Shown here piece by piece: positions 87 to 52,290 of a DNA stretch of 64,000 nt (position 1 is its first letter; every line of letters starts with the position of its first letter). The notes beneath the pieces were generated by a model. It worked only from the letters and a program-made list of their open reading frames with translations, made no database searches and was not told the origin of the DNA. A program made the translations under genes and the position numbers. This DNA is from Pseudonocardia lacus (lineage in GTDB: Bacteria > Actinomycetota > Actinomycetes > Mycobacteriales > Pseudonocardiaceae). The DNA is taken from NCBI RefSeq assembly GCF_018531445.1, contig NZ_JAHDTH010000007.1:1-64000 (forward strand), written 5' to 3'.

Positions 87-100
87 GGCCGTCGGTCCCG
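87..100. promoter_or_regulatory. Putative DevR-type operator upstream of CBS gene
   Basis: GGCCGTCGGTCCCG is an imperfect inverted repeat of the kind seen before many genes here, about 118 bp upstream of the CBS-domain gene. A near-identical version (GGGTCGTCGGTCCG) lies 35 bp before the CBS-BON gene that starts at 47537. The assignment rests on similarity to the window-wide motif. Confidence 0.4.
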
Positions 101-218
101 CCGTTGCGGGCCGCTGCGCCCTGCCGGGGCGGGCGCGGGGCGGTCACGGTGGACGCCGACCGGGGAGCACCGGGCGGGCACCACCGCACCGGCCCCGCAG
201 GCGAAGGAGCGGTGCGAC

Positions 219-821
219 GTGTTGGTGCGCGAGGTGATGACGCGGCCGGTGGTGACGGTCCGGCCGGATACCCCGGTCCGGGCCGCGGCGGTCCTGCTGA
301 CCGGGCGGGGCTTCACCGCCCTGCCCGTGGTGGACGGCGACGGCGAGCTGGTCGGCATCGTGACCGAGGCCGATCTGCTGCGCGGCCGGGTGCGGCACGA
401 CGCGCGCTCGATGCTGCCTGAGGAGCTGGCGACGATCCCGCCGTCGCGGGTGGGCGAGGTGATGACGACGCAGGTGCTGACGGTCACGCCGATCACCGAC
501 GTCGCCGACGTGGTGGCCCGGATGCGGGCGTTGGGGATCCGGTCGGTGCCGGTGGTCCGGGCCGGTGCGGGGCTGGTCGGCATCGTGAGCCGCCGCGACG
601 TGCTGGCCACCTTCGCCCGGACCGACAGCGCGATCGCCGCCGAGGTGCGCCACCGGCTGGCCGCCTACGCCGGTCCGGGCCGGTGGGGGGTCGCGGTGCA
701 GGGCGGTCAGGTCACGTTGCGCGACGCGCTCGCCGACCCGGCCGAGGAGCACCCGGCCAGCGTCGTCGCGGCGTCCGTGCGCGGGGTGCTGCACGTGCAG
801 GTGCTGCCGGACGAGACCTGA
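219..821 (+). CDS. Tandem CBS-domain protein with BON-like tail
   Basis: A 200-residue protein with two CBS repeats (about residues 5-57 and 78-130), each showing the VMT...V.PD opening and the LPVV/VPVV...LVGIVT/LVGIVSRRDV strand-turn pattern of a Bateman module that binds adenosine nucleotides. Residues 140-198 (VAVQGGQVTLRD, then GVLHVQVL) look like a shortened BON domain. The GTG start is chosen because GAAGGAG sits about 10 nt upstream and the first CBS motif begins at once. A 24-bp palindrome follows the stop, so it is probably monocistronic. Cytosolic; a nucleotide or energy sensor by family. Ligand and partner are unknown. Confidence 0.85.
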   Translation: MLVREVMTRPVVTVRPDTPVRAAAVLLTGRGFTALPVVDGDGELVGIVTEADLLRGRVRHDARSMLPEELATIPPSRVGEVMTTQVLTVTPITDVADVVARMRALGIRSVPVVRAGAGLVGIVSRRDVLATFARTDSAIAAEVRHRLAAYAGPGRWGVAVQGGQVTLRDALADPAEEHPASVVAASVRGVLHVQVLPDET

Positions 822-840
822 CCGGGACCGCACGCCCTCC

Positions 841-864
841 GACCAGGGTCCGCGGACCCTGGTC
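841..864. promoter_or_regulatory. 24-bp perfect palindrome, probable DevR-type operator
   Basis: Positions 841-852 and 853-864 are exact reverse complements with no loop; the centre reads AGGGTCCGCGGACCCT. It lies 20 bp after the CBS stop and 51 bp before a universal stress gene start. A loopless palindrome is a poor terminator, and the core matches the GGGNCC...GGNCCC operator seen elsewhere, so an operator is favoured. It could do both jobs. Confidence 0.5.
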
Positions 865-915
865 GGGAACGGGCTGCCCGCCGACGCTGGGGCCAACCGC
901 CGTGAGGAGGCCGCC

Positions 916-1836
916 ATGACCAGCTCCACGTCGTCCCGCCCGCCGATCGTGGTGGGCGTCGACTCGTCCGACTCCGCGCGCGACGCCGCCGAGTGGGCGG
1001 CCGACCTGGCTGCCGTCCTGCGCTGCCCGCTGCACCTCGTGCACGTCGTCCCGGGCTATCCCCAGGACGCGGCCCCGGAGGGGGTGCCGGACTGGCTGCG
1101 GGAGATCGTGGACCGCGCCGTCCGGGCGGACGCTGAGGCCACCGACTCCGAGATCGTCGCCGGGGGGGACCGATCAGCTGCTGGTGCGACGGGCCGCGGG
1201 TGCCCGGCTGCTGGTGGTCGGCAGCTACGGCGAGGCCGCGTGGTCGGGCATGCTCGCCGGGCGGACCGGGTTGACCCTGATCGAGCGGGCTCCGTGCCCG
1301 GTCGCGGTGGTGCGGGGCAAGGCGCCCCTGGTTTCGCCGCCGCGCCGGGGACCCGTCGTGGTCGGGGTGGACGGCTCGCGGGCCTCGGTGCGCGCCCTGG
1401 TCCTGGGCGCCGACCTGGCCGCCGCGACCGGCGCTGAACTGCTCGCGGTGCATGCTTTCACCGACGTGTCCGAGGCCGGCGGCGCCCCGAGGCCGGCGGC
1501 GCCCCCCACCGGCGCCACGAGCAGTGGGCCCGGTTGGTCGCCGAGGCCGGGACCGAGCTCGACGACGCGCTGGCGCGGGCCCTCGACGACCGCCCGGAGG
1601 TGCGGTTCCACCGCCGGGTCGAGGCCGGCACGGCCCTGCGCGTGCTGATGGACCACGCGGCGTCGGCGCGGATGATCGTCGTGGGGCAGCGCGACGAGCG
1701 CGCCCCCGTCGGGGAGATGCTGCTCGGCTCCACCAGCCGCGGCCTCGTGGAGTTCGCGCCCTGCCCCTTCGTGGTGCTGCCGACCGCCGCGGCCCGCGGG
1801 ACCAACGACCTGCCGGCTGCGGTCCACGGCCACTGA
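916..1836 (+). pseudogene. Universal stress protein gene broken by two frameshifts
   Basis: Begins as a two-domain universal stress protein (PIVVGVDSSDSARDAAEWA) after a GAGGAG site. Near 1162-1168, a run of seven G shifts the frame: the family sequence GTDQLLVRRAAGARLLVVGS continues in the next frame and the original frame stops at 1435-1437. A 17-bp tandem duplication (1472-1505) then returns the frame, and the second domain (RMIVVGQRDERAPVGEMLLG, then LVEFAPCPFVVL) runs to 1836. The lesions sum to 18 nt, but the early stop precedes the second, so the product would be 173 residues with only half of domain 1 correct. Genuine decay, slippage, or a sequence error at the G run are all possible. 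Confidence 0.8.
1472..1505 (+). repeat. 17-bp tandem duplication inside universal stress gene
   Basis: The unit GAGGCCGGCGGCGCCCC occurs twice back to back (1472-1488 and 1489-1505). Seventeen is not a multiple of three, so the duplication changes the reading frame. It probably arose by replication slippage. Confidence 0.9.
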
Positions 1837-1894
1837 CCGTCGACCTCCGACGACGCGCACGGTGTGTGCGGAAGCAGCGTCCGAGGAGGAGAAG

Positions 1895-2801: not shown

Positions 2802-2815
2802 GGACCGTTCGGCCC
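2802..2815. promoter_or_regulatory. Putative DevR-type operator
   Basis: GGACCGTTCGGCCC, about 76 bp upstream of the universal stress gene at 2892; one base longer in the centre than the commonest form of the motif. Confidence 0.45.
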
Positions 2816-2891: not shown

Positions 2892-3371
2892 ATGACGGTC
2901 GAGAGGACAGCCGAGGAAGCCACCACCGGGGACGTCGTCGTCGGAATCGACGGCTCGCCCGGCTCGCGGGCTGCGGTCGAGTACGCGTTGGAGGAGGCCG
3001 CGCTGCGCGGGGCCGAGCTGCGGATCGTCGCCGTGGCGCCGGTACCCGACTACTGGGCGGTCACCTACGGGTTGAGCAGCCCTCCGCCACCGACAGAGAT
3101 CGTCGACCGGACCCGCGCGGAGGCGCGGAAGTTCGCCGACGAGGTGCTCGCGGCCCACCCGGAGACGGCCGCGAAGGTGGCGGTGACGGTGGAGGCGCGC
3201 ACCGGGGTCGCCTGGCACCAGCTGACCGAGGCGGCCAAGGGGGCGGCGCTGCTCGTCCTCGGGCACCGCGGACGCGGGGCGGTGACCAGCGCGCTGCTCG
3301 GGTCGGTGGGGCTGCAGTCGGTGCTGCACGCGACCTGCCCGGTCACGATCGTGCGGACCGACGCGCCCTGA
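2892..3371 (+). CDS. Single-domain universal stress protein
   Basis: A 159-residue single UspA domain. It opens with VVVGIDGSPGSRAAVEYAL and carries the ATP-site loop GHRGRGAVTSALLGSVG, ending in the typical TCPVTIVRT strand. The ATG at 2892 has AGGAG six bases upstream; an in-frame ATG at 2841 lacks such a site. Close paralogues start at 18979, 43685 and 48126, sharing the GHRGRG...SVGL motif and a longer loop after strand 2 (here PDYWAVTYG). A strong hairpin follows the stop. Probable cytosolic ATP-binding stress protein. Confidence 0.9.
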   Translation: MTVERTAEEATTGDVVVGIDGSPGSRAAVEYALEEAALRGAELRIVAVAPVPDYWAVTYGLSSPPPPTEIVDRTRAEARKFADEVLAAHPETAAKVAVTVEARTGVAWHQLTEAAKGAALLVLGHRGRGAVTSALLGSVGLQSVLHATCPVTIVRTDAP

Positions 3372-3477: not shown

Positions 3478-3551
3478 CGGTCGAAGGGACGTCGGGCTCT
3501 GATCGCGGCACGGGCTCCCGGGTCAGGGTGGACACCGACGAGAGGATGTCC

Positions 3552-4571
3552 ATGAACACCATGAAGGCCGCGGTCGTGCCCGCGCTGGGCGCCCCGCTGG
3601 AGATCCGCGACGTGGCCGTGCCCGAGCCGGGCCCGGGCCAGGTGCTGGTCCGCATGCTGGCCAGCGGCATCTGCCACACCGACATCCACGCCGCGCGCGG
3701 CGACTGGCCGGTGAAGCCCCAGCCGCCGTTCACCCCGGGGCACGAGGGTGTCGGCCTGGTCGAGCGGGTCGGCCCGGGTGCGGCGCAGCGCAGGGTCGGC
3801 GACCGGGTCGCCATCGCCTGGCTGGGTTCGGCGTGCGGGCGGTGCCGGTACTGCGTGTCGGGCCGGGAGACCCTGTGCGAGGCCCAGACCAACAGCGGCT
3901 ACTCCGTCGATGGGGCCTACGCCGAGTACGCCCTGGCCGACGAGCGGTTCGCCGTCCCCGTGCCGGACGCGGTGTCCTCCTTCGACGCCGCCCCGCTCAC
4001 CTGCGCGGGCGTCACCACGTTCAAGGCGATCAAGGCGGCCCGGGTGGAGCCGGGGGAGCGGGTCGGCGTGTTCGGCGTCGGCGGGCTGGGCCACCTCGCC
4101 GTGCAGTACGCGCGGATCGTCGGCGGGCTGGTGGTCGGCGTCGACGTCGAGGACGACAAGCTGGCGCTGGCCACCGAGCTGGGCGCCGACCACGTCGTCA
4201 ACGTCCGTACCGAGGACCCCGTCGCGAAGATCCGCGAGCTCGGCGGCCTCGACGTCGCCGTTGCCCTGGCCGCGGCACCGGAGTCGTTCGAACAGGCCTA
4301 CCGGTCGCTGCGCCGCGGCGGCCGGCTGGTCTGCGTCGGCCTTCCCGCCGAGGGAGCCCTGCACATCCCGATCTTCGACACCGTGCTCGGCGGCATCTCC
4401 GTCATCGGCTCCATCGTCGGGACCCGCCAGGACCTGGCCGACGTCTTCGCGCTGCACGCCGCGGGCCGCACCCGGGTGATCGCACGGTCGCGCAAGCTCG
4501 ACGAGGTCAACGCCTGCTTCGCCGAGGTGCTGTCCGGCTCGGTCCCGGCCCGCATCGTGCTGGAGTTCTGA
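3552..4571 (+). CDS. Zinc-dependent alcohol dehydrogenase (AdhP/AdhA-like)
   Basis: A 339-residue medium-chain dehydrogenase that interconverts alcohols and aldehydes with NAD(P). The catalytic-zinc region is GICHTDIHAARGDWP with GHEGVG; the structural-zinc cysteines lie in CGRCRYCVSGRETLC; the Rossmann motif is GVFGVGGLGHLAVQYAR. Three in-frame ATGs occur (3546, 3552, 3561); 3552 is favoured by GAGAGGA just upstream. A putative DevR-type site precedes it, and a second dehydrogenase (27624-28631) sits in the same island. This suggests fermentative NADH disposal during oxygen limitation, which is inference. Confidence 0.92.
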   Translation: MNTMKAAVVPALGAPLEIRDVAVPEPGPGQVLVRMLASGICHTDIHAARGDWPVKPQPPFTPGHEGVGLVERVGPGAAQRRVGDRVAIAWLGSACGRCRYCVSGRETLCEAQTNSGYSVDGAYAEYALADERFAVPVPDAVSSFDAAPLTCAGVTTFKAIKAARVEPGERVGVFGVGGLGHLAVQYARIVGGLVVGVDVEDDKLALATELGADHVVNVRTEDPVAKIRELGGLDVAVALAAAPESFEQAYRSLRRGGRLVCVGLPAEGALHIPIFDTVLGGISVIGSIVGTRQDLADVFALHAAGRTRVIARSRKLDEVNACFAEVLSGSVPARIVLEF

Positions 4572-4589
4572 GCGGGGAGGAGACGTGCC

Positions 4590-5510
4590 ATGGACAGCGC
4601 AGTCGTGGTCGAGGACCTGCGCAAGGCGTACGGCTCGAGGACGGCGCTCGAAGGGCTGAGCCTGTCGGTCGGCACCGGCGAGCTGGTCGCCGTCGTCGGC
4701 CCCAACGGGGCCGGCAAGACGACCGCCATGGAGCTACTGGAAGGCCACCGCCGCCGCGACGCGGGACGGGTGACGGTGCTCGGGTTCGACCCGCAAACCG
4801 GGGGCACGGCGTTCCGCGAGCGGATCGGGATCATGCTGCAGGACGCCGGGCTGGACGAGGCGTTCAGCACCCGCGAGCTGCTCACCCTCTACGCCGGCTT
4901 CTACCCCCGGCCGCGACCCGTCGATGACGTGCTCGCCCAGGTCGGGCTGGTCGACGCCGCCGACACCCGCACCGCGGCGCTGTCCGGCGGCCAGCGCCGG
5001 CGCGCCGACCTGGCCCTGGCCCTGATCGGCGACCCGGACCTGCTGTTCCTCGACGAGCCGACCACCGGGTTCGACCCGGCCGCCCGCCAGCACGCCTGGG
5101 ACGTCATCGACGGCCTGCGCGAGCACGGCACGACCGTGCTGCTGACCACGCACTACATGGAGGAGGCGCAGCGGTTGGCCGACCGGGTCGGCGTCCTCGT
5201 CGGCGGCCGGTTGGTCGCCCTGGGCACGCCTGCCGAACTGGCCGAACGGCACATGGCGGGCGGGTCGACGATCGGGTTCCGGCTCCCGGCCGGCGTCGGC
5301 ACGGCCCAGCTGCCCGACCTCGGCGACCGGCTGACGGTCACCGGCTCGGCCGTGCGGGTGCTCACCCGCGAGCCGACCCACGACCTGCACACCCTGACCT
5401 GGTGGGCGGTGGACCGCGGGGTCGAGCTGGAGGCGCTGAGCCTGGGGCGGCCGTCGCTGGAGGAGGTCTACCTCGACCTCGTGCGGGACGCGGAGCGGAC
5501 CGATGGCTGA
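4590..5510 (+). CDS. ABC transporter ATP-binding subunit (ABC-2 type)
   Basis: A 306-residue ATPase with Walker A GPNGAGKT at residues 37-44, signature LSGGQRRRADLA near 131, Walker B LLFLDEPTTG near 151 and the H-loop LLTTHYMEEAQ. The C-terminal 90 residues resemble the DrrA/NodI-type exporter extension. It starts 18 bp after the dehydrogenase stop and overlaps the permease gene by 8 bp, so translational coupling is likely. It powers the permease next to it; the exported substrate is unknown. Confidence 0.93.
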   Translation: MDSAVVVEDLRKAYGSRTALEGLSLSVGTGELVAVVGPNGAGKTTAMELLEGHRRRDAGRVTVLGFDPQTGGTAFRERIGIMLQDAGLDEAFSTRELLTLYAGFYPRPRPVDDVLAQVGLVDAADTRTAALSGGQRRRADLALALIGDPDLLFLDEPTTGFDPAARQHAWDVIDGLREHGTTVLLTTHYMEEAQRLADRVGVLVGGRLVALGTPAELAERHMAGGSTIGFRLPAGVGTAQLPDLGDRLTVTGSAVRVLTREPTHDLHTLTWWAVDRGVELEALSLGRPSLEEVYLDLVRDAERTDG

Positions 5511-7185
5511 GAAGACGGTTCCCGCGCGCCCGCGGCGCGCTGTGCTCGCGCACGCCCGGCACGCGGCGCGTTCCTTCCTGCGCACGCCGCTCGCGGCGTT
5601 CTTCACGCTGGCGTTCCCGCTGGGCTGGCTGGGCACCGTCGTGCTGGTCGTCGGGAACCAGGAGATCGGCCCGCCGGGCGCCGGGGTGCGCCTGGCCCAA
5701 CTGCTCACCCCGGTGGCCGCGGTGTTCGCCGTGGCGATGGCCGCGTTCGTCACGCCGGCGGTCACGATCGTGCTGGCCCGCGAGCGCGGTGAGCTCAAGC
5801 GCCTGCGGGGGACCCCCTCACCGCCCGCGGCCTTCCTGGCCGGGCAGGTCCTGTGCGCGACGGTCGTCGCCCTGCTCGGGACGGCGATCATGGTCGCCGC
5901 CGGCGTCCTGGCCTTCGGTGTGCGCGTCGACCTCGCCGAACTGCCCGGCGCGCTCGTCGTCCTGGTGGTCGGGATCGCGGCGCTGGCCGCGCTCGCCCTC
6001 GGCGTCGCCGCGCTCGTGCCCACCGGTGCGACCGCGCAGGCGGCCACCATCGGATCGGTCGTCGTGCTCGGGTTCGTCTCCGACATGTTCACTGCGGGCG
6101 GCGCGGCGCCGGGCTGGCTGGACGCGGTGGGCTGGTTCTTCCCGCTGCGGCACCTGGTGGCCGCGTTGCGCGACCCGTTCGACCCGTTCACCGCCGACGG
6201 CTTCGGGTGGGTGCACCTCGTGGTCGTGGCGGCATGGGGGCTGATGGGGGCCCTGGTGGCCTTGCGCGCCTTCCGGTGGGAACCCCACCGAGGTTCCCGA
6301 CGGGCCCACGCCGCGTGGGGCGCCGCGGCGCCGCGCCGCCGCTCCGCGCTCACCCTGATCCTCGGTCAGCTCTCCTACGCCGACCGGACGCAGTGGCGCG
6401 ACCCCGGCGCCTGGTTCTTCGCCGTGGTGTTCCCCGGGCTGCTGTTCGTGGTGCTCGGCGCCGTCTGGGGAGGCGCAGTGTTCGACGGGATCCCCTACCC
6501 GCAGGCGCTGGCCCCGGGCCTGGTCGCGTACGGCGTTGCGGTGACCGCCTTCGTCAACCTGCCCGAGGCGACGGCGGTGGCCCGCGACCGCGGGGTCCTG
6601 CGCAGGCTGCGCGGCACGCCGCTGCCGGCGTGGGCCTACCTCGCCGGTCGGGGGATGTCGGCCCTGGGCATGGGGGCGATCACCGCCGCGCTGGTGCTGG
6701 CCGCGGGGGTGGCGATGTTCGATGTGCGGATCGCCCCGCGCGGGGTCCCGGCGCTGCTGCTCGTACTGGTGCTGGGCACCGCCTGCCTGCTGGCCCTCGG
6801 CACGGCGCTGGCCGCGGCCATCCGCACGGGCAAGGCGTTCTCGGTGGTGTCGCTGGCCCTGCTGCTGCCGATGTCGTTCCTGTCCGGGCTCTTCCCGTTC
6901 GGTGCGCCGGAACCGGCCGTGGTGCGGGCGGTGGCCTCGGTGTTCCCGCTGCAGCATCTCGGCGACGCGCTCGACGAGGCCCTGCGGGCGGGCTCCTGGG
7001 CCCCGGTGGCCTGGCACCACCTGGCCGTGCTGCTGGTGTGGGGGCTGGTGGGCGCCGCGGTGGCGGCCCGGCTCCTGCGGCCCGGTCGCTCCTGGCGGGC
7101 CGTCGAACCCGCGCGGGCGCGCACCGGGCCCGACGGACACGGTCCGCGGCAGGTCGTCGCGGACCGCACCCACGAGGAGGTCTGA
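5503..7185 (+). CDS. ABC-2 type permease, two membrane domains fused
   Basis: A 560-residue membrane protein with two successive ABC2-membrane modules (about 1-255 and 285-545), each with about six hydrophobic segments and the linker pattern ARERGELKRLRGTP / ARDRGVLRRLRGTP, where the parallel sequences betray an internal duplication. Usual ABC-2 permeases hold one module of about 250 residues and dimerise; here both halves are in one chain. It overlaps the ATPase gene, which forms the transporter with it. Substrate (drug, lipid or polyketide) cannot be told. Confidence 0.9.
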   Translation: MAEKTVPARPRRAVLAHARHAARSFLRTPLAAFFTLAFPLGWLGTVVLVVGNQEIGPPGAGVRLAQLLTPVAAVFAVAMAAFVTPAVTIVLARERGELKRLRGTPSPPAAFLAGQVLCATVVALLGTAIMVAAGVLAFGVRVDLAELPGALVVLVVGIAALAALALGVAALVPTGATAQAATIGSVVVLGFVSDMFTAGGAAPGWLDAVGWFFPLRHLVAALRDPFDPFTADGFGWVHLVVVAAWGLMGALVALRAFRWEPHRGSRRAHAAWGAAAPRRRSALTLILGQLSYADRTQWRDPGAWFFAVVFPGLLFVVLGAVWGGAVFDGIPYPQALAPGLVAYGVAVTAFVNLPEATAVARDRGVLRRLRGTPLPAWAYLAGRGMSALGMGAITAALVLAAGVAMFDVRIAPRGVPALLLVLVLGTACLLALGTALAAAIRTGKAFSVVSLALLLPMSFLSGLFPFGAPEPAVVRAVASVFPLQHLGDALDEALRAGSWAPVAWHHLAVLLVWGLVGAAVAARLLRPGRSWRAVEPARARTGPDGHGPRQVVADRTHEEV

Positions 7186-7432: not shown

Positions 7433-7443
7433 TCGACGCGGCA

Positions 7444-7456
7444 GGACCAACGGCCC
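7444..7456. promoter_or_regulatory. Putative DevR-type operator
   Basis: GGACCAACGGCCC lies 130 bp before the flavodoxin start; a second half-site pair CGACCCAGGTCCCG follows at 7467. Confidence 0.35.
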
Positions 7457-7586: not shown

Positions 7587-8129
7587 ATGGATGCGCTTGT
7601 CGTGGTGGAGTCGGTGTTCGGCAACACGCGCCGGATCGCCGAGGCCGTGGCCGCGGGGCTGGGGCAGCGGACGCACGTGCGGGTCGTCGACGTCGCGGAG
7701 GCGGTGGATGCGGAAGCGGCCGCCGTACGGTCGGCCGACCTGTTGGTGGTCGGCGGGCCGACGCACGCGTTCGGGATGACGCGCGCCTCGACGCGCCGGT
7801 CGGCGGCCGAGCAGGCCGGTGGCGGTGCCGTTCCGGCGGAGGTGGGGCTGCGCGAATGGTTGGCGGGCCTGCCGCCGGTCGAGGGCCGGCGGATCGCGGC
7901 GGCCTTCGACACCCGCGCGGACCGTCCGCGGTTGCCGGGTTCGGCGGCTGCTGCGGCGTTGCGCAGGTTGCGGCGGTTGGGCTTCGAGCGCGTCTGCGGG
8001 CCGGAGTCGTTCCGGGTGAGCGGGACCAAGGGCCCGCTGGTGGACGGCGAGGCGGAGCGGGCCCGGTTGTGGGGCGCGGCGCTTCTCGCCCGGGTCACGG
8101 CCCGCGAGGCGGAACGGAGCGGACGATGA
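7587..8129 (+). CDS. Flavodoxin-domain protein
   Basis: A 180-residue flavodoxin-like protein. The N-terminus VVVESVFGNTRRIAEAVAAGL holds the phosphate-binding (S/T)xxGNT loop, and LLVVGGPTHAFGMTR is the second FMN-contacting loop. It is slightly longer than classical flavodoxin and belongs to the flavodoxin/NO-synthase group of mycobacteria. GGAGG precedes the ATG. The stop overlaps the next start (ATGA at 8126), giving a tightly coupled operon with an SRPBCC and a DUF4389 membrane protein. Cytosolic electron carrier by family; partners unknown. Confidence 0.87.
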   Translation: MDALVVVESVFGNTRRIAEAVAAGLGQRTHVRVVDVAEAVDAEAAAVRSADLLVVGGPTHAFGMTRASTRRSAAEQAGGGAVPAEVGLREWLAGLPPVEGRRIAAAFDTRADRPRLPGSAAAAALRRLRRLGFERVCGPESFRVSGTKGPLVDGEAERARLWGAALLARVTAREAERSGR

Positions 8130-8890
8130 AGGATCTCGCAAGGACGATCACGGGAGCGCTCCGGCAGGCGCTCGTCGCGGAGGCGCTGGTGGTCGGCGCC
8201 GTGACCGCGGTGGCCGCGGCCGGGGTCGTGCTGCGGCGCTCGCGCGACTGGGGCGCGCTGCCCACCGAGACGGGCGCACCGCTGCCCGGCGACGACCTGG
8301 TCCCCGAGCCCGCGCGCACCACGACGCGGGCGGTCAACGTCGACGCCCCGGCCGCCGAGGTCTGGCGCTGGCTGGTGCAGATGGGACAGGGCCGCGGCGG
8401 GATGTACAGCTATGACCGGCTGGAGAACGCGATCGGCCTGGACATCCACAGCGCCGACCGGGTGCACGAGGAGTGGCAGGACCTGGCGATCGGCGACCGC
8501 ATCACCGTGGTGCCGCCGGGCTGGGGCCCGCTGCCCGACGGGTACGCGATGGTGGTGGCGCGCATCGAGCCCGAGCGGGTCCTCGTGCTGCGCCAGTCGC
8601 CGCCCGAGCACCCGTGGAACGCCGTCTGGACGTTCGAGATCGAACCGCTGGACGCCAGGAGTTGCCGGTTGCTGTCGCGCTCGCGCGCCCAACGGCCCGC
8701 GTCTCGGGCGCTGGGCCTGGCCACAGCGGCCATCGAGCCGGTCACCACCATCATGACCAGGCGGATGCTGCTGGGCGTCAAGCAGCGCGCCGAACGCGCC
8801 GTCTGGCCGGACGGGCGACAGGCGCCGCCGCGGCCCCGACCGGTGCGCAGCGCAACCACCGTCCTGGACGCCCCGGCGGGTGCGTCATGA
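8126..8890 (+). CDS. SRPBCC-fold protein with N-terminal membrane anchor
   Basis: A 254-residue protein whose N-terminal helix (about 10-32, LVAEALVVGAVTAVAAAGVVL) is probably a membrane anchor, followed by a START/SRPBCC-like domain beginning with RAVNVDAPAAEVWRWLVQMGQ and running to about 210 (typical of polyketide-cyclase-like proteins that bind hydrophobic ligands). The C-terminal 35 residues are proline- and arginine-rich. It overlaps flavodoxin upstream and the DUF4389 gene downstream by ATGA. Ligand unknown. Confidence 0.8.
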   Translation: MKDLARTITGALRQALVAEALVVGAVTAVAAAGVVLRRSRDWGALPTETGAPLPGDDLVPEPARTTTRAVNVDAPAAEVWRWLVQMGQGRGGMYSYDRLENAIGLDIHSADRVHEEWQDLAIGDRITVVPPGWGPLPDGYAMVVARIEPERVLVLRQSPPEHPWNAVWTFEIEPLDARSCRLLSRSRAQRPASRALGLATAAIEPVTTIMTRRMLLGVKQRAERAVWPDGRQAPPRPRPVRSATTVLDAPAGAS

Positions 8891-10347
8891 CCGCGGCGAC
8901 CACCGGCGGCCCGGTCCGCATCGACGCCCGGCTCGACGAGCACCTGAGCCGGTGGCTGTGGCTGGTCAAATGGGTGCTGGTGATCCCGCACCTGATCGTG
9001 CTGGCGCCGCTGTGGGTGGCGTTCGCGGTGCTGTCGGTCGTCGCGTTCGTGGCGATCCTGGCGACCGGCCGCTACCCGGAGTCGATCTTCGAGTTCACCA
9101 CGGGCGTGCTGCGCTGGACGTGGCGCGTCGCCTACTACGCCTACGGGGCGCTGGGCACCGATCGGTACCCGCCGTTCACCCTGGGCGAGGTGCCGGACTA
9201 CCCGGCCACCCTGCACATCACCCGGCCGGAGCACCTGTCCCGCGGCCTGGTCCTGGTCAAGTGGCTGCTCGCGCTGCCGCACTACCTCATCACCGCCTTC
9301 TTCGTCGGGGGCGGCACGTACGCGGTGTGGCGCCTCGGCGAGTCGAGCTCGCAAGCCGGCAGTTGGTCGACCACCGCCGCCGGCGGGCTGATCGGGCTGC
9401 TGGTGCTGATCGCCGGGATCGCCCTGTTGTTCACCGGGCGGTACCCGCGCGGCGTGTTCGACCTGGTGCTCGGCATGCACCGCTGGGTGCTGCGGGTGGT
9501 CGCGTACGCGGCGCTGATGACCGACGCCTACCCGCCGTTCCGGCTCGACACCGGCGGGACCGACCCCGCCTCGATCACGGTGACCGGGGCCGGACCGATC
9601 GACACCCCCGCGCCGACGGCGCCGACCGGGACGTCCGTCGCACCACCCCCTCCGACCCCACCCACCCACGGGTGGAACGCGGGCCGGGTCGTCTCGGTCG
9701 TGGTCGGGTCGGTGCTCGTCGCGGCGGCGCTGGGCATGGCGGTCGGTGGTGGCACCCTGCTCGCCGCCGACCGCGTCGGCCGCGACGCCGACGGCTTCCT
9801 CAGCACGCCGGACCGGTGGTTCACCAGCCCGGGCCACGCGCTGCAGTTCGACGCCGTCGACCTCGTCCCCGCCGACGGCTCCCAGGTCCGCTACGTCGAC
9901 CCGGCCTCGCTGCTCGGTGTCGTCCGCGTGCGGGCCGCCGCACGGGATGGGACCGTCTTCGTGGGCATCGGGCCGGCCGAGGACGTGCGGTCCTACCTCG
10001 GCGGTGTCGGCCGCGACGTGATCGGTGGCCCCGCCGCCGACGCCCGCCGCACGACCTGGGTGCCCGGCGGTGCCCCGGCCACTGCGCCCGGTGCGCAGGA
10101 CTTCTGGGCGGCGTCGGTGTCCGGTCCCGGCGTCCAGCAGTTGACCTGGACCGCGGTCGACGGCCGCTGGGCGGTCGTGGTCATGAACGCCGACGGCTCC
10201 CGGCCCGTCGACGCCCGGGTGTCCGGCGGTGCGACCGTGCCCGGCCTGCACTGGGTGTGGACCGGCCTGTTCATCGGGGCCGGTGCCACGCTGCTGGCGG
10301 GCGCGCTGCTGGTCGGCCTGGCCGTCCCGCGGCGACCGGTCGGCTGA
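8887..10347 (+). CDS. Large DUF4389 membrane protein
   Basis: A 486-residue protein with two tandem DUF4389-type halves: LVKWVLVIPHLIVL / TGRYPESIFEFTTGVLRW and LVKWLLALPHYLIT / TGRYPRGVFDLVLGMHRW. Each has paired membrane helices. A proline/threonine linker (about 238-262) and a further helix lead to a roughly 150-residue extracytoplasmic domain, closed by a last helix near the C-terminus. Such proteins occur in DevR-linked loci of actinomycetes but have no assigned function. Translationally coupled to the SRPBCC gene. Confidence 0.82.
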   Translation: MTAATTGGPVRIDARLDEHLSRWLWLVKWVLVIPHLIVLAPLWVAFAVLSVVAFVAILATGRYPESIFEFTTGVLRWTWRVAYYAYGALGTDRYPPFTLGEVPDYPATLHITRPEHLSRGLVLVKWLLALPHYLITAFFVGGGTYAVWRLGESSSQAGSWSTTAAGGLIGLLVLIAGIALLFTGRYPRGVFDLVLGMHRWVLRVVAYAALMTDAYPPFRLDTGGTDPASITVTGAGPIDTPAPTAPTGTSVAPPPPTPPTHGWNAGRVVSVVVGSVLVAAALGMAVGGGTLLAADRVGRDADGFLSTPDRWFTSPGHALQFDAVDLVPADGSQVRYVDPASLLGVVRVRAAARDGTVFVGIGPAEDVRSYLGGVGRDVIGGPAADARRTTWVPGGAPATAPGAQDFWAASVSGPGVQQLTWTAVDGRWAVVVMNADGSRPVDARVSGGATVPGLHWVWTGLFIGAGATLLAGALLVGLAVPRRPVG

Positions 10348-10387: not shown

Positions 10388-11041
10388 TCAGCCCGTGCGA
10401 CCCGTCTGCTTGCGCTCGGCGGCGTAGACGGCGGCCTCGGTGCGGCGCGACATCCCGAGCTTGTGCAGCAGGGACGAGACGTAGTTCTTCACCGTCTTCT
10501 CGGCCAGGAACATCTCGGCGCCGATCTGGCGGTTGGTCAGCCCGTCGGCGATCAGCCCGAGGATGCGCCGCTCCTGGGGGCTGAGCGAGGCGTAGCGCGG
10601 GTCCTCGGGTTCGTTGCCCTTGCGCAGCCGCTCGAGCACGGCGGCGGTGGCGCGGGGGTCGAGCAGTGAGCCGCCCGCGGCGACCGTGCGCACTGCGCCG
10701 ACCAGGTCGGTGCCTGCGACCTGCTTGAGCAGGTAACCCGCGGCGCCGGCCATGATCGCGCCGAAGAGGGCCTCGTCGTCGGAGTACGAGGTGAGCATCA
10801 GGCAGGCCGGTGGCGGGTCGATCGCGGCACGCACGTCGCGGCACACCGAGACGCCCTCGCCGTCGGGGAGGCGGACGTCGAGGATGGCGACGTCCGGGCG
10901 CAGGGCGGGGATGCGGGCGAGCGCCTGGGCGGCGGTTCCGGCCTCGCCGATGACCTGGATGTCGTCCTCGCTCTCCAGGAGCTGGGCGATGCCGCGCCGG
11001 ACGATCTCGTGGTCGTCGAGCAGGAACACGGTGGTGGTCAC
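10388..11041 (-). CDS. devR: DevR/DosR-like NarL-family response regulator
   Basis: A 217-residue regulator. The receiver domain has the acidic pair DD at 9-10, phospho-acceptor D55 in ILDVRLPDG, T84 and K106. The C-terminal LuxR-type helix-turn-helix (about 147-205) carries FLAEKTVKNYVSSLLHKLGM, nearly identical to the DNA-reading helix of M. tuberculosis DosR, including the K-T-V-K-N residues that contact the GGGAC half-site. By family it is the dormancy/hypoxia master activator, phosphorylated by DevS, whose gene is divergent at 11628. A DevR-type site lies 58 bp upstream, suggesting autoregulation. The stop side converges with the DUF4389 gene. Confidence 0.93.
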   Translation of the reverse strand: MTTTVFLLDDHEIVRRGIAQLLESEDDIQVIGEAGTAAQALARIPALRPDVAILDVRLPDGEGVSVCRDVRAAIDPPPACLMLTSYSDDEALFGAIMAGAAGYLLKQVAGTDLVGAVRTVAAGGSLLDPRATAAVLERLRKGNEPEDPRYASLSPQERRILGLIADGLTNRQIGAEMFLAEKTVKNYVSSLLHKLGMSRRTEAAVYAAERKQTGRTG

Positions 11042-11099: not shown

Positions 11100-11114
11100 G
11101 GGACCTTCGACCCG
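11100..11114. promoter_or_regulatory. DevR-type operator upstream of devR
   Basis: GGGACCTTCGACCCG, 58 bp upstream of devR. Its first 14 bases recur exactly in reverse orientation at 17335-17348 before the PNPOx gene. It is one of the clearest copies of the motif. Confidence 0.6.
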
Positions 11115-11515: not shown

Positions 11516-11530
11516 GGGCCGGAGGTCCCG
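11516..11530. promoter_or_regulatory. DevR-type operator upstream of devS
   Basis: GGGCCGGAGGTCCCG, identical over 15 bases to the copy at 40699-40713 and, in reverse, to 32474-32487. It is 97 bp before devS and just upstream of the decayed CBS gene on the other strand. Confidence 0.55.
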
Positions 11531-11594: not shown

Positions 11595-13349
<1,755 letters not shown>

Positions 13350-13496
13350 TCCGCGTCCCGCCGAGCCGTCGGACCACCGCGAACCGGGACGAACGGCCCT
13401 GCTCGACCGTCGTGGACCGGCGCAGGATCGCCGTGACGGCCGGAGAGCCCGGTCGCACCCGACGGGACGGGGGACATCCCGGGGAAGGACACCGAC

Positions 13497-13770: not shown

Positions 13771-13787
13771 GCCCGGACCGCGGCAAA

Positions 13788-13820
13788 CGGCCGCCCGACC
13801 GATCCGCGGTCGGACGGCCG
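13788..13820 (+). terminator. Hairpin after 2TM gene
   Basis: Arms 13788-13801 and 13807-13820 pair at 13 of 14 positions around a 5-nt loop, 18 bp after the expected stop. Confidence 0.6.
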
Positions 13821-17334: not shown

Positions 17335-17349
17335 GGGTCGAAGGTCCCG
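17335..17349. promoter_or_regulatory. DevR-type operator of PNPOx-CBS-DGAT operon
   Basis: GGGTCGAAGGTCCCG; its first 14 bases are the exact reverse complement of those of the copy before devR. It lies 32 bp before the preferred GTG start. Confidence 0.55.
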
Positions 17350-18505: not shown

Positions 18506-18542
18506 GGACCAGCGGCCCGAACCCGACGGGCCGAACGGCCCT
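18506..18542. promoter_or_regulatory. Paired DevR-type operator sites before cydA remnant
   Basis: GGACCAGCGGCCC (18506-18518) and GGGCCGAACGGCCCT (18528-18542), 97 and 119 bp upstream of the cydA start and centred 23 bp apart, about two helical turns. Confidence 0.5.
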
Positions 18543-18832: not shown

Positions 18833-18847
18833 GGGACCTTCGGCCTG
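18833..18847. promoter_or_regulatory. DevR-type operator between divergent genes
   Basis: GGGACCTTCGGCCTG, 82 bp upstream of the DUF1918 gene and 131 bp upstream of the universal stress gene. It could serve both. Confidence 0.55.
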
Positions 18848-21628: not shown

Positions 21629-22123
21629 ACCACCACGGTCGACCCGTGGTCGCCGTTCGTCCCGGGCCGCTGGGCCCGGTGCGGCGCGCCGCAGGTCCCG
21701 CGTCGCGCGCGCGTCGGGATAGTCGGTGCCGGAGCCGACGGCGGATGGTCGGCAGCACCCACGGCTCGGTGGTGCGTATCTGCGAGTGGATCCGCGACCT
21801 GCGGGCGCGGGCGTCCGCGGCGGAGTGCCGCGTGGTCGACCTGGACCCGGACCTGACCGGCGTCGAATGGTGCGTCGAGCTGGACACGCCGTAGGAACGC
21901 ATCGCGCCGGACCGAGCAGGTCGGTCGTGCCCGGAAGGCCCGCTGCCGGAGGCGATCGACCCGGAGCCGCACCCGTCGCGCTGCTGTCGGTCGATCCGCG
22001 TTCCGGAACCGGCGCGGGTCGAATGACCCTCAGACCGCGGCTCTCCAGCCCTGCGCGCGGCGCCGGGCCCTGGATAGCGTCGGACCGCGAGCAGGAAGTT
22101 CCGACTCGAGATCGGGGTGTCCC
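21629..22123. other. 495-bp stretch without a recognisable gene
   Basis: It contains an operator-like CGCCGCAGGTCCCG at 21687-21700, upstream of the minus-strand universal stress gene, and a short plus-strand frame (21744-21893) whose start GSTHGSVVRICEWIRDLRA faintly resembles a flavodoxin loop. Nothing else is supported. Confidence 0.4.
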
Positions 22124-24370: not shown

Positions 24371-24526
24371 CCTGCGAGGATCGAGGTCGGCGCGGCGGGC
24401 CGACCAGCGGCCGCTCGTCCCGCGGCGCCAGGGGCGAAGGTCACGCGACCCGAGGGAGCACGCAGCAAGTCGGTGGCCTCGCGCGGCGTCGTGCGTTCGG
24501 CGCTGACGTGCACGGTCCGCGGGGCT

Positions 24527-25000: not shown

Positions 25001-25226
25001 CTCGGTCCTCCGCTCGGCAGGTGCCCCAAGGGGGTGGGCAGGCAGTCGGGACGCCAGGGTCGCCCCGTCGCACCCCCGCGGGTAGGGGCGGAGCGCGGGC
25101 GGCCCGCCGGCCGGGGGACCCGGTCGGGGCAGGACGAACGACCCACCGATTCCCGGCCGGCCGCCACTGACCGGAGCACCGCACCGCGGCCCAGCATGGT
25201 CGTGAGCACATCGAGAGGAGACGGCG

Positions 25227-32388: not shown

Positions 32389-32472
32389 GGGGGACTCCTC
32401 GGTCGGGGCCTGTGGCGCCGACACTCGCACCGGCGGGTGCGCGGCGGACCGGTCGGCGGTCCCGGCTCGGCC

Positions 32473-32487
32473 GGGACCTCCGGCCCC
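32473..32487. promoter_or_regulatory. DevR-type operator of CBS-PspC-LiaF operon
   Basis: GGGACCTCCGGCCCC, the reverse complement of the 14-mer at 11516 and 40699, 84 bp before the CBS start. Confidence 0.55.
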
Positions 32488-33716: not shown

Positions 33717-33729
33717 GGGTCTTCGGTCC
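33717..33729. promoter_or_regulatory. DevR-type operator between GerW and GH65 genes
   Basis: GGGTCTTCGGTCC lies 58 bp before the GH65 start and 79 bp before the GerW start; one base shorter than the commonest form. Confidence 0.45.
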
Positions 33730-33787
33730 GCCTTCCCGGGGCGTTCGTCCCCTGCTCACGCACGGTGGTCGTCCCTACCCTGGCCCG

Positions 33788-36274: not shown

Positions 36275-36288
36275 GGGCCGATCGGCCC
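36275..36288. promoter_or_regulatory. Operator-like palindrome
   Basis: GGGCCGATCGGCCC is a perfect 14-bp palindrome, 90 bp before the secreted-protein gene and 34 bp after the GH65 stop. Confidence 0.45.
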
Positions 36289-40698: not shown

Positions 40699-40713
40699 GG
40701 GCCGGAGGTCCCG
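40699..40713. promoter_or_regulatory. DevR-type operator between divergent genes
   Basis: GGGCCGGAGGTCCCG, identical over 15 bases to 11516-11530. It is 36 bp before the kinase start and 101 bp before the Acg-like fragment start. Confidence 0.55.
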
Positions 40714-41412: not shown

Positions 41413-41413
41413 C

Positions 41414-41449
41414 ACGGCTCCTGCCGACCACGCGGTCGGCAGGAGCCGT
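41414..41449. terminator. Bidirectional hairpin terminator
   Basis: A perfect 16-bp inverted repeat (41414-41429 with 41434-41449) with a 4-nt loop ACGC, 17 bp after the stop of the convergent Acg gene. It suits both strands. Confidence 0.75.
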
Positions 41450-41466
41450 CGAGCGTTCGGACGCGG

Positions 41467-46850: not shown

Positions 46851-47537
46851 TCACCGCCGGTGCAGCACCGGCGGTCGATCGTTCACGCCCCCGTCGTCCA
46901 GGGCGTAGACCAGCTCGTTGGTGACGTCGACGACGCCGTCCATCCGGCGGACCAGGCGCTCGGCGATCTCGACCTCGCTGCGGCGCTGCAGCTGGCCGGC
47001 CAGCACGACGATCCCGTGGTCGACGGACACACGCACCGCGTTCGCATCGGCCAGCAGGATGTGCACGAACACCTCCTCGACGACCGTCCGGCGCATGTCG
47101 GCGTCGCTGCGCAGGAAGCGCCGGACGAGGTCACCGCGGCTGATCACGCCGACCAGCCGGCCGTCGTCGAGCACGGGCAGGTGCTTGACCTCGTGGCGGA
47201 CCATCAGGTCCGCGGCCTCGGCGAGGAGGGCAGTGGGCCGGATGGTGAGCGCGGGCGCGGTCATCACGTCGCCGACGGTGTCGCCCCGGGCCCGGCGGAC
47301 CTCGGCGCGGGTCCGACGGCGCTGCCACCAGCGGGCGGGATCGGTCAGCGGGCGGGCCTGCTTGGACAGCAGATCGCGCTCGGACACCATCCCGACGACC
47401 CGGTCGTCGGCGTCGAGCACGGGCAGGGCGCTGAGTCCGTACCGGGCGAGCGACCGAGCCAGGTCCTTGATCGGCATCGCGGGGCGCGCGGTGCGGACGG
47501 TGGTGGTCATGACGTGGGCGACAGTGGCGTTTCGCAT
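46851..47537 (-). CDS. CBS-pair protein with C-terminal BON domain
   Basis: A 228-residue paralogue of the protein at 16104. First CBS: TVAHVMTTTVRTARPAMPIK with RVVGMVSERDLLSKQ; second: VGDVMTAPALTIRPTALLAE with RLVGVISRGDLVRRFL; BON: AVRVSVDHGIVVLAGQLQRR then DGVVDVTNELVYALD. ATG at 47537; the operator copy 47573-47586 is 35 bp upstream. Likely a nucleotide-sensing protein that may associate with membranes through BON. Confidence 0.9.
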   Translation of the reverse strand: MRNATVAHVMTTTVRTARPAMPIKDLARSLARYGLSALPVLDADDRVVGMVSERDLLSKQARPLTDPARWWQRRRTRAEVRRARGDTVGDVMTAPALTIRPTALLAEAADLMVRHEVKHLPVLDDGRLVGVISRGDLVRRFLRSDADMRRTVVEEVFVHILLADANAVRVSVDHGIVVLAGQLQRRSEVEIAERLVRRMDGVVDVTNELVYALDDGGVNDRPPVLHRR

Positions 47538-47572: not shown

Positions 47573-47586
47573 GGGTCGTCGGTCCG
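47573..47586. promoter_or_regulatory. DevR-type operator of CBS-BON / USP operon
   Basis: GGGTCGTCGGTCCG, 35 bp before the CBS-BON start; same variant form as at 87-100. Confidence 0.45.
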
Positions 47587-49478: not shown

Positions 49479-49536
49479 CCCAGGGCCGCTCGACGCGTGC
49501 GACCGGGTCGGAAGACCCCTCGCCGGAGGCGGTGGC

Positions 49537-49550
49537 GGGTCCTTCGGCCC
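49537..49550. promoter_or_regulatory. DevR-type operator before PspC gene
   Basis: GGGTCCTTCGGCCC, one base from the consensus, 35 bp upstream of the PspC start. Confidence 0.55.
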
Positions 49551-50138: not shown

Positions 50139-50178
50139 CGGGATCTCACGGGCGGAGGACTTCCGCGCCGCACGGGAC

Positions 50179-50192
50179 GGGACCTTCGCCCC
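50179..50192. promoter_or_regulatory. DevR-type operator
   Basis: GGGACCTTCGCCCC, 55 bp before the membrane protein gene at 50248; one base from consensus. Confidence 0.55.
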
Positions 50193-50247: not shown

Positions 50248-50628
50248 ATGAGGTTCACCGGAAAGGACGTCGCTGCGACCGTGCTGGTCGCCGCCATCGT
50301 GGTGCCGTACGTGGGGTACCTGCTGGGCTGGGACGTGCCGCTTGTCCAGGACCCGCGGGGCATGGGCGCCATCGGTCTCGTCCTCGGCATGCTCGCCGCT
50401 CTGCTGGCCGGGCGTGCCGCGTTCGACGCCGAGCCCTGGCACCGCACCGCCCTGGTGACGGGGGTGGGTGCGTTCGGCCTCGGCGTCGCCGCGGTGTGGA
50501 CGGAGAATGAGTACGTGCTGGCCGTGTTCGTGATCGCCATCGTGGCGACCTGGGCGCTGGCCACGCTCGTCGACACCGCGGTCCTGCCGCCCACGAGGAC
50601 GGCGGGACGGGCGCACGGTCACGTCTGA
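50248..50628 (+). CDS. Four-helix membrane protein
   Basis: A 126-residue protein with four hydrophobic segments (VAATVLVAAIVVPYVGYLLG, IGLVLGMLAALLAGRAAF, TALVTGVGAFGLGVAAVW, VLAVFVIAIVATWALATLVD). GGAGGTGAGG precedes the ATG. It has its own operator copy and a hairpin after the stop, so it is a single-gene unit. Family not recognised; similar small membrane proteins accompany stress genes in related actinomycetes. Confidence 0.8.
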   Translation: MRFTGKDVAATVLVAAIVVPYVGYLLGWDVPLVQDPRGMGAIGLVLGMLAALLAGRAAFDAEPWHRTALVTGVGAFGLGVAAVWTENEYVLAVFVIAIVATWALATLVDTAVLPPTRTAGRAHGHV

Positions 50629-50641
50629 CGGTGCGCCCGGA

Positions 50642-50669: not shown

Positions 50670-50690
50670 CCCGCGCCGTCCGGACGGGGC

Positions 50691-50960
50691 TCAGGCCCGC
50701 GGGAGCGGTCGGGTTCCGGTGCCGGTCTGCACGAGGTCGCGGGCGATCCGCAGCGACAGCACGTGCACGTAGAGGTGGATGCGGGCATCGGCGAACTCCG
50801 CGAGCGCCGCGCGGGCGGTCGCCGCGAGGACGGTGGCGTCGACCCCGGGGAAGTCCCGGACCAGCTCCGCGAGCAGCCGGCGCGACGGCTCGTCCGCCGT
50901 CTCGACTGCATCGGCGGAGCCGGCGGCGCGGGGACCGGTGACGGTCTCGGAGCGGGCCAT
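50691..50960 (-). CDS. Three-helix-bundle dimerisation-type small protein
   Basis: An 89-residue protein: after a loose start, SRRLLAELVRDFPGVDATVL, ATARAALAEFADARIHLYVH and VLSLRIARDLVQ form three helices as in the short three-helix-bundle (DUF3562-like) family of actinomycetes. Function unknown. An operator copy (51020-51033) is 59 bp upstream. Confidence 0.78.
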   Translation of the reverse strand: MARSETVTGPRAAGSADAVETADEPSRRLLAELVRDFPGVDATVLAATARAALAEFADARIHLYVHVLSLRIARDLVQTGTGTRPLPRA

Positions 50961-51019
50961 GCCCCGATGGTCGGTGCGCTGCCAGCACGATGGACAGGGG
51001 CGACGGTCCGGGATCGTCC

Positions 51020-51033
51020 GGGTCCTCCGCCCC
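51020..51033. promoter_or_regulatory. DevR-type operator
   Basis: GGGTCCTCCGCCCC, 59 bp before the small helical protein gene (start 50960). Confidence 0.5.
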
Positions 51034-51048
51034 CTCCCAGCACGACGA

Positions 51049-51513
51049 TCAGGACGCCTGCCGCCGCGGCACGTCGCGGGGCGCCGCGCTGCGGCGGACC
51101 CGGCGACCGGTCAACCGCTGCAGCGGGATGGAGAACGCCCGCTGCGCGGGTCCCGGCGTCCACGGTGGCGGGAGCCGCTCGGCCAACCAGGCCAGGCGGA
51201 CCGGTTCGAGGATCTCGTAGGCCTCGCCGACCCCCAGCACGCTCCAGCCCGTCCACGTCGGATCATCGAGCTCATCGACCTCGAAGGCGACGACGTGGTG
51301 GCAGGTGGCGTCGGCCAGCGCGCTCAGGGCCGGGGTGGCGAAGACGACCTCCTCGTCGTCGACGAGGTAGGCCACAGGCTGCGCGGCCGGCAGGGCGGAC
51401 TCGGTGAACACGACCCGCCCGATGCGGCGCGAGCCGAGCAGGCGCAGGCACTCGGCCCGGTCGAGGTCCACGAGCTCACGCCCTCCGGGGTCATGGTGGT
51501 TGAGCATCTGCAT
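51049..51513 (-). CDS. Pyridoxamine 5'-phosphate oxidase-like flavin protein
   Basis: A 154-residue paralogue of the protein ending at 16877: RELVDLDRAECLRLLGSRRI, GRVVFTESALPAAQPVAYLV, HHVVAFEVDELDDPTWTGWS and FSIPLQRLTGRRV. Two in-frame ATGs (51513, 51507); the first is chosen. An operator-like site (51549-51562) is 35 bp upstream, the same spacing as for the paralogue. Probable FMN or F420 split-barrel protein, substrate unknown. Confidence 0.87.
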   Translation of the reverse strand: MQMLNHHDPGGRELVDLDRAECLRLLGSRRIGRVVFTESALPAAQPVAYLVDDEEVVFATPALSALADATCHHVVAFEVDELDDPTWTGWSVLGVGEAYEILEPVRLAWLAERLPPPWTPGPAQRAFSIPLQRLTGRRVRRSAAPRDVPRRQAS

Positions 51514-52290
51514 CCCGCCATGGTCGGGTCGTCCCCGATCCGGGACCGGTGTCGGAGGTCCCGCGGGCGAGCGGCGTTGGCCCTGTCCGGGTCGTCCACC
51601 GGCCGCGCCCGGGAGCGGGCGCCCGGTGGCGCAGGGTGAGCCAGGCCAGCGCACCGACCGGGATCGGCGCCCAGTAGCTGACCAACCGCCACCCCAGCAC
51701 CGCGACCGCGGCCGCCTCCAGCGGCGTCCCGAACCCCACCAGCGCGGGCACCAGGACGCCCTCGACCACGTCGATGCCGCCCGGGGTCAGGGGCAGCACG
51801 CCCAGGACCCCGGGCAGGGCGTAGGCGACGAAGAGCTCCAGCGGATCGGCCGGGTGGCCGGTCCCGGCCAGGACGACGCCGAGCGCCGCCGCGTCGAGCA
51901 GTCAGTTGGCCGCGCCCCACCCGCACGCCACGGCCAGCCGCGCCGGGTCGCTGCCCAGTGCCCGCAGGTTGCTCGGCCTCCCGCACGACCACGTCCTCGA
52001 CCCGCTGCGGGTCGACGCGCGGGATCCACGAGGCCAACCGCCGCACACCGCGCCGCGTCCGGGACCCCTGCCCGGGTGAGCACGACCACGACACCGCACG
52101 CCACCGCGATCAGCGCGGCGCCGGCGGTGGCCGCGCCGACGTAGAGGTCGCCGTGATCGGCGCCGTGCAGGGGGATCGAGACCAGCAGGGCCACGGAGAG
52201 CATGACGTGCGGCGGCAACGCCGAGCCGGTCCCGCACCCCTTACGGCCGAGGCCCTGGGCTGGCAGGCGGCACGTGGCCATGCCGGACGA
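51491..52290 (-). pseudogene. YbhN/UPF0104-type flippase gene, multiply frameshifted
   Basis: Segments in different minus-strand frames line up as one polytopic protein: VMLSVALLVSIPLHGADHGD and AALIAVACGVVVVLTRAG, then VRRLASWIPRVDPQRVEDVV, then ALGSDPARLAVACGWGAAN, LLDAAALGVVLAGTGHPADP with LFVAYALPGVLGV, and PLTPGGIDVVEGVLVPALVG with WRLVSYWAPIPVGALAWL. The PLTPGGIGxxE motif is diagnostic of the UPF0104/lysylphosphatidylglycerol-synthase-like flippase family. At least three frameshifts and an in-frame stop are present, and the N-terminal 80 or so residues are missing. Confidence 0.78.
51549..51562. promoter_or_regulatory. DevR-type operator before PNPOx-like gene
   Basis: GTGTCGGAGGTCCC, 35 bp before the start; a GGGACC half-site also stands at 51542. 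Two mismatches to GGGCCGGAGGTCCC. Confidence 0.4.

Follow-up and report, generated by a model that had tools for sequence, protein, structure and literature searches.

Which protein binds the short inverted repeat that recurs across the first 52 kb of this Pseudonocardia lacus contig, and do the genes behind it form one regulon? We analysed bases 1-64000 of contig C477 (78,014 bases), called here the window: 64,000 nucleotides of 75.4% GC from an assembly of 8.06 Mb in 501 contigs (99% complete, 4.4% contamination), with gene calls and gene starts from our own codon model. An earlier note on this DNA had proposed the repeat as a candidate operator of the response regulator DevR, placed before about twenty units of an island that ends near 52 kb. 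Our analysis indicates that the repeat, with a core of about GGGNCSWWSGNCCC, is very probably the operator of DevR (= DosR, OsdR), and that it would serve one regulon, through an activator mechanism, with a second gene cluster on contig C468 included. We read it so because four lines agree: the identity of DevR and DevS, an enrichment of the repeat obtained without circularity, its conservation upstream of devR in other genomes, and its placement relative to -10-like hexamers. The kind of system is an ordinary one, a DevR/OsdR regulon, and as such is well supported.

The regulator pair and its operator

The gene devR (10388..11041, reverse strand) encodes a NarL/LuxR-type response regulator whose best match in the PDB is Mycobacterium tuberculosis DevR (3c3w, E 1.3e-73). 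The alignment covers residues 4-213 and keeps D54, T82, K179, K182 and N183 (numbers counted along the chain), which include the phosphorylation Asp and the DNA-contact residues K179, K182 and N183 of DevR, as described in the portions consulted of PMC3029386, PMC4082495 and PMC4973870. Its five best named relatives come from one Pseudonocardiales metagenome-assembled genome and four Pseudonocardia, at 81-92% identity. On the forward strand, devS (11664..13349) encodes a sensor kinase with two GAF domains, HisKA_3 and HATPase (Pfam), and its GAF matches are 2vzw (E 1.5e-54) and DevS 2y8h, that is, DosT and DevS. DevS is thus the predicted cognate kinase, with a putative haem-type GAF domain.

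The island carries the characteristic dormancy gene families of the DevR/DosR/OsdR regulon: many Usp, CBS, CBS-BON, WS/DGAT, PNPOx, nitroreductase, Rv2632c-like, Rv1733c-family, SulP, GH65 and other genes. Rv2632c-like proteins belong to the M. tuberculosis DevR/DosR regulon, with which the island also has Usp, a sulfate transporter (cf. Rv1739c) and the Rv1733c family in common, besides the five residues named above, a GAF-type kinase and closely packed pairs of boxes. Unlike in M. tuberculosis, the box is GC-richer here and many genes lie in one island. The OsdR/OsdK regulon of Streptomyces coelicolor (region SCO0167-SCO0219; Urem et al. 2016, PMC5069765) shares with the island the clustering of Usp, nitroreductase, PNPOx and ADH genes around two-component genes, and a box before the regulator gene. 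In the part of that paper available to us, three rows of Table 1, before SCO5979, SCO0167 and narG2 (SCO0216), hold GGGACCTTCGGCCC, and OsdR bound the SCO5978-SCO5979 region, which carries one 14-mer site, in an electrophoretic mobility shift assay. The operator equals published OsdR sites and is therefore not a new candidate. Its palindrome matches the published OsdR consensus AGGGCCGATCGGCCCT (PMC5069765, same part), with A or T commoner at core position 4 in the island, and on this evidence the island would be a DevR/OsdR-type regulon; unlike in the OsdR region, the island proteins that were scanned include no nitrate reductase. A literature search for Pseudonocardia DosR dormancy found no paper, most subscription papers being outside its scope.

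The repeat is enriched in the window. With up to three mismatches, GGGACCTTCGGCCC occurs 53 times, against 28.0 (standard deviation 5.9) after shuffling, and none of 100 dinucleotide shuffles reached 53. With at most one mismatch it has 15 matches genome-wide, eight of them in the window, which is 0.8% of the genome (binomial 1e-13); the backwards 14-mer pattern, used as a control, has 13 genome-wide. For exact matches to GGGWCSWWSGNCCC the whole genome gives 34 rows (29 distinct sites) and the backwards pattern 11; in the window there are 10 rows, or eight distinct sites. A looser pattern with one mismatch was far less specific (1140 matches genome-wide against 690 for its control). Over 150 family genomes the 14-mer counts were uninformative, the backwards control being equal or higher in many rows, and we therefore relied on matrix scans of fetched stretches.

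A scan of this kind, which the earlier note had suggested, bore out the enrichment in intergenic DNA of the island. The genome was sampled rather than scanned whole, with 208 kb from the start of every 25th contig as background, and one matrix was palindromised from the 26 OsdR sites of S. coelicolor printed in Urem et al. 2016. At score 10 it found 18 sites in the 51.7-kb island, 11 of them intergenic, one site between 51.7 and 64 kb, and 19 in the background, two of them intergenic; the densities are 3.48 and 0.91 sites per 10 kb in island and background. For intergenic DNA the contrast is 11 sites in 13.3 kb of island against two in 34.9 kb elsewhere (p 3e-5), and at score 7 it is weaker (11.4 vs 6.2 per 10 kb). 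A second matrix, the island matrix, was seeded with nine of ten example positions of the earlier note (45007 omitted) and used with a score cut of 9 in site lists. The two halves of the island predict each other, with 2.72 and 3.46 sites per 10 kb at score 12 vs 0.19 and 0.05 in the background, and 24 of the 37 island sites with a score of at least 11 lie outside called genes, although non-gene DNA makes up 27% of the island (p 2e-6). That the enrichment merely reflects the base composition of a 75% GC island is extremely improbable: loose matches are frequent in such DNA, as the 1140 above illustrate, but at the thresholds applied no shuffle reached the window's count, and the same-genome background and the backwards-pattern and reversed-matrix controls speak against this reading too.

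Most individual positions held as well. Eight of the ten examples score at least 11.6 with the island matrix and 51020 reaches about 9.0, just under the cut, a check that is partly circular because the matrix started from nine of them; 45007 scores -3.1 and, with two extra central bases, was rejected as a DevR site. The sequence at 45007, GGGACCGCATGGTCCC, is a perfect 16-bp palindrome whose half-sites are separated by two more bases than those of DevR boxes. The 14-mer GGGCCGGAGGTCCC was found at 11516, 40699 and, reversed, 32473, and GGGTCGAAGGTCCC at 17335 and, reversed, 11100. The absence of the repeat beyond 52 kb also stands, in the sense that all ten matches of score at least 8 between 51.7 and 78.0 kb lie inside genes.

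The operator is partly conserved upstream of devR in other actinobacteria. Comparison loci were found with the peptide KTVKNYVS as search seed, and identity of that peptide across other devR loci is circular for this reason. Among 80 named loci, one of which had too short an upstream region, the island matrix at a score of at least 11 found a box within 260 bp before devR in 21 of 79 orthologues, and the reversed matrix in none (0/79). When 14 stretches of relatives were added to the 80 loci, 37.6% of 202 homologues of island genes had a site of score at least 10, vs 15.6% of 1355 called genes at the same loci, with a thin control of two homologues of genes from 53-64 kb; PNPOx (22/40) and nitroreductase (15/28) were strongest. 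The genes of unknown function that the earlier note had drawn into the regulon are a more mixed group. Near devR elsewhere, DUF4389 has one homologue (with a site), the kinase fusion one (without) and GH65 two (0/2 with a site); PspC, 2TM and several more are among the many island genes for which neither the 80 loci nor the 14 stretches gave a homologue. For most, it is the nearby site that suggests membership.

Promoter geometry

Although the island itself supplied the training sites for the geometry matrix, the same geometry recurs in independent genomes. Around intergenic boxes a weaker second box is enriched, 23 bp away in this genome and 22 bp away in relatives (unique pairs, second box of score at least 2). 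The 30 sites of this genome gave three pairs at 22 bp and 13 at 23 bp (mean at other offsets 0.6), the 27 sites of genus relatives eight and five, and the 132 sites of other actinobacteria 33 and 12 (mean at other offsets 2.0). The preference for 23 over 22 bp separates this genome from the others (Fisher p 2e-4) and only weakly from genus relatives (0.03). In M. tuberculosis, according to the part of PMC3029386 consulted, DevR boxes are closely packed, the proximal one lies over the -35 element and binding is cooperative; paired boxes with the proximal one apparently overlapping the -35 region are likewise what the island promoters suggest. The words 'tandem' and 'spacing' are absent from the main text of PMC5069765, and the portions available of PMC12919924 and PMC10034137 hold nothing on box spacing. 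The promoter layout is sharper here than in the literature examined, although the spacing may well be in print already, subscription papers having been mostly outside the search.

The boxes also have two preferred registers with a downstream -10-like hexamer. In nine of 14 devR upstreams (a fifteenth, G139, was too short and was left out) TANCGT follows the best box, by 52-54 bp from its centre, against 0.05 expected per shuffled sequence. These are nine of the ten sequences from this genome, named Pseudonocardia, locus L041 and same-genus genomes, and seven of them carry a GGGNC half-box 22-23 bp downstream. The form of the hexamer was chosen along the way, TANCGT being seen in devR promoters and NANNNT then applied to all site-gene pairs, with site cut-offs of 9 in this genome, 10 in genus relatives and 11 in others; a site between divergent genes is counted once for each gene, and a single hexamer may serve both boxes of a tandem. 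Measured from the box centre, NANNNT stands at +29..31 or +51..54 in 25/38 pairs of this genome, 28/42 of genus relatives and 84/149 of others, against 8/56 for reversed-matrix sites and 82/421 for pseudo-sites at equal distances from other genes. The pseudo-sites show a slight excess at +51..54 (49/421, p 0.003), far below that of the sites. Without the two devR promoters (three pairs) the count is 23/35, and in the window alone 17/24. A search for TANNNT at one exact offset found nothing, and the looser [TC]A..[GC]T reached 3/36 at two neighbouring offsets. If the hexamer is a -10 element, the box centres would fall at about -42 and -64, where an activator would be expected to bind.

This geometry replaces the 20-bp steps to start codons that had been reported. 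The 26 distances of score-11 sites in this genome give p 0.77 at 20 bp, p 0.003 at 22.5 bp and a best period of 24 (p 0.023 over all periods); the 34 distances at score 9 give p 0.18 at 20 bp, and the 131 from relatives a best period of 10.5 bp (p 0.005; at 20 bp, p is 0.05). The regular interval runs from box to box and measures 22-23 bp, in place of the 20 bp to the start codon. It is the distance to the -10-like hexamer that is constant, not that to the start codon, and the box lattice together with the preferred box-to-hexamer distance is the likely cause of the start-codon periodicity. We tentatively suggest, as an idea that may well fail, that DevR promoters across Actinobacteria follow one grammar, in which only positions near -42 and -64 are favoured for boxes and the lattice of 22 bp has become 23 bp in this lineage, perhaps with altered DevR dimer contacts, and with two near-identical DevRs on the same boxes.

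Several counts weigh against reading the boxes as DevR operators. Of the 37 island sites with a score of at least 11, 13 lie inside called genes, and other stretches fetched from the same genome, about 0.52 Mb in all and half of them chosen for pattern matches, hold 54 further boxes of that score; a hand count of the list puts 44 inside called genes and 10 outside. In other genomes no box scoring at least 11 precedes devR in 58 of the 79 orthologues, and homologues with a site are few for DevS (7/38) and absent for the ABC ATPase (0/16) and CydA (0/8). Moreover, 13 of the 38 oriented pairs of this genome have no -10-like hexamer in register. The boxes are also GC-rich palindromes, as terminator hairpins or a dispersed repeat would be, and in the window they do not avoid convergent gaps (two sites in 1.2 kb vs six in 2.4 kb of divergent and 15 in 9.9 kb of co-directional gaps). 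Yet in the 80 named loci convergent gaps are avoided (one site in 40.0 kb vs 84 in 180.2 kb), less clearly so in the 14 stretches of relatives (two in 10.9 kb vs 23 in 38.0 kb); the flanks of the 37 island sites have one common 19-bp match apart from overlapping neighbours, and the register with -10-like hexamers speaks otherwise, which makes hairpins or a dispersed repeat highly unlikely.

Boxes across the island

The repeat before some twenty units corresponds to 23 places listed across the island, three of them between divergent genes. Five boxes on the forward strand precede the first genes: 86..99 before a CBS-domain gene (219-821; score 12.9, weak partners at -23 and +22); 846..859 before a Usp-domain open reading frame (ORF) with a Usp match (916-1437; score 12.6, NANNNT +30, partner -22); 1798..1811, within the 3' end of the preceding ORF, before a tandem-Usp gene (1895-2776; score 15.5, NANNNT +30 and +53); 2802..2815 before a Usp gene (2892-3371; score 11.5, GATGCT +31); and 3486..3499 before ADH and ABC-transporter genes (3552-7185; score 11.4, CAGGGT +31, partner -23). 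The next, 7443..7456 (+), stands before the flavodoxin, unknown and DUF4389 genes (7587-10347; score 14.4), with no in-register -10-like hexamer. The Usp gene at 916-1836 (+) is apparently broken in two pieces.

The devR promoter has its distal box (about -64) at 11100..11113 (-), 65 bp before devR, with a score of 17.4, a GGGAC half-box 22 bp downstream and TACCGT at +52 from the centre. The box at 11516..11529 (+; score 14.8) lies 141 bp before devS; toward devS there is no hexamer at +29..31 or +51..54, and there is one at +50. Beyond devS, 13386..13399 (+; score 17.2, CAGGAT +30) precedes an ORF with a 2TM match (13633-13770, start provisional); ORF 13497-13925, tried as the 2TM protein, had no Pfam match and was dropped. 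The box at 17335..17348 (-; score 14.2, CAGTAT +30) precedes PNPOx, CBS/BON and DGAT genes (17317 down to 14773; Pfam). At 18528..18541 (-; score 15.6, with a partner at -23 that scores 6.5) a box without a -10-like hexamer in register stands upstream of a broken cydA, 132 bp from its first piece. This gene, for cytochrome bd subunit I (17356-18396, -), is present in the window as four pieces only, with a full-length match on contig C324.

Between divergent DUF1918 (18562-18750, -) and Usp (18979-19482, +) genes lies the unoriented box 18833..18846 (score 14.4), with GACCCT at +52 on the reverse strand and none on the forward strand. An F420-quinone-reductase-like gene (22133-22633) follows 22016..22029 (+; score 14.1, TAGCGT +52), and a SulP transporter gene (22670-24358) follows 24431..24444 (-; score 11.4, partner -23), where GATCCT lies at +55, just beyond the counted register. 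The second unoriented box, 25131..25144 (score 13.3, partners -23 and +23), separates divergent Usp genes (24527-25000, -; 25227-26126, +), with CAGCAT at +54 on the forward and none on the reverse strand. Tandem boxes 23 bp apart at 32450..32486 (-; 32450 and 32473, scores 10.4 and 11.6) precede a CBS gene (31951-32388), and a single GAGTGT stands at +30 and +53 from their two centres. A tRNA-Asp gene lies within the island at 32750-32841. The third divergent place, 33717..33751, holds boxes 33717 and 33738, 21 bp apart (scores 5.7 and 11.9), between a gene at 33230-33637 (-) and GH65 (33839-36241, +), with TACCCT +31 on the forward and CACGAT +51 on the reverse strand.

The box at 36275..36288 (+; score 15.4, GACCGT +30) matches the core of the published OsdR consensus letter for letter. 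Three strong boxes within 285 bp (37848, 37958, 38119) lie in and beside a SHOCT-domain ORF, with no in-register -10-like hexamers. Toward the island's end, 40699..40712 (-; score 14.8, GACCCT +31) precedes the kinase-fusion gene (39169-40662), and 47573..47586 (-; score 12.0, partner +23, GACCAT +30, CACTGT +53) a CBS/BON gene (46851-47510). Three boxes occupy 49483..49550 (+; 49483, 49505 and 49537, scores 8.0, 10.2 and 15.8, with CAGCGT at +30 of 49537). The box at 50179..50192 (+; score 14.3, GATGCT +30) precedes gene 50248-50628, which has no Pfam or NCBIfam match, and 51549..51562 (-; score 9.9, partner +22, GACCAT +30), the island's last box outside called genes, a PNPOx gene (51049-51471). 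Two more genes appear broken: 40830-41816 (+), which by eye resembles the C468 gene L001:6902-7705, and 51491-51799 (-), an LPG-synthase-TM-like piece just below the Pfam cut-off. Decay and sequencing error may both account for the broken island genes and are indistinguishable here.

A second cluster and a second DevR

The first 8 kb of contig C468 (L001, 1-8041), fetched only for its motif matches, hold a second dormancy cluster, which includes relatives of genes in the window. Boxes stand there before PNPOx, S30AE-type (ribosome-hibernation-like), hemerythrin and two nitroreductase genes and a tandem-Usp gene pair. The cluster starts at the contig end, so that more may be missing, and the start of C477 showed no overlap with it. 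An isolated strong box, C465:70382, precedes a gene without a Pfam match. Since motif and dormancy genes occur together on C468, the regulon is larger than the island; the proposal of one DevR regulon stands on the four lines given at the outset, its confinement to the island does not.

A second DevR, 94% identical, is encoded among unrelated genes at C114:98461-99099 (L122:18452-19105); it has two boxes of its own, 66 and 87 bp upstream of the start, and TACCGT at +54. This counts against assigning the boxes to the window's DevR, and there is an appreciable, if smaller, chance that they are DevR-family operators whose main binder is the C114 protein, or that both proteins share them. The window's devR, however, lies inside the island, adjoins devS and has its own box, while the gene list around the C114 gene, inspected by eye, has no kinase gene beside it.

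With the window's DevR as the regulator, the GAF-domain kinase DevS would sense low oxygen or nitric oxide and phosphorylate DevR. DevR dimers would bind the strong box and then, cooperatively, the weak box two helical turns away, and the box near -42, overlapping the -35 region, would recruit RNA polymerase. Some two dozen island promoters would be switched on in this way (perhaps 35-40 genes, by our estimate), with a further set on contig C468, and devR would activate itself.

The two-register rule, under which a -10-like hexamer follows the box centre by about 30 or 52 bp, should beat the motif alone for predicting members, and would draw several genes of unknown function into the regulon. 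The second, isolated DevR raises the question of how two near-identical regulators share one operator. What the locus offers is a tuberculosis-type dormancy switch, in a Pseudonocardia-like bacterium, whose promoter layout would be readable from sequence alone.

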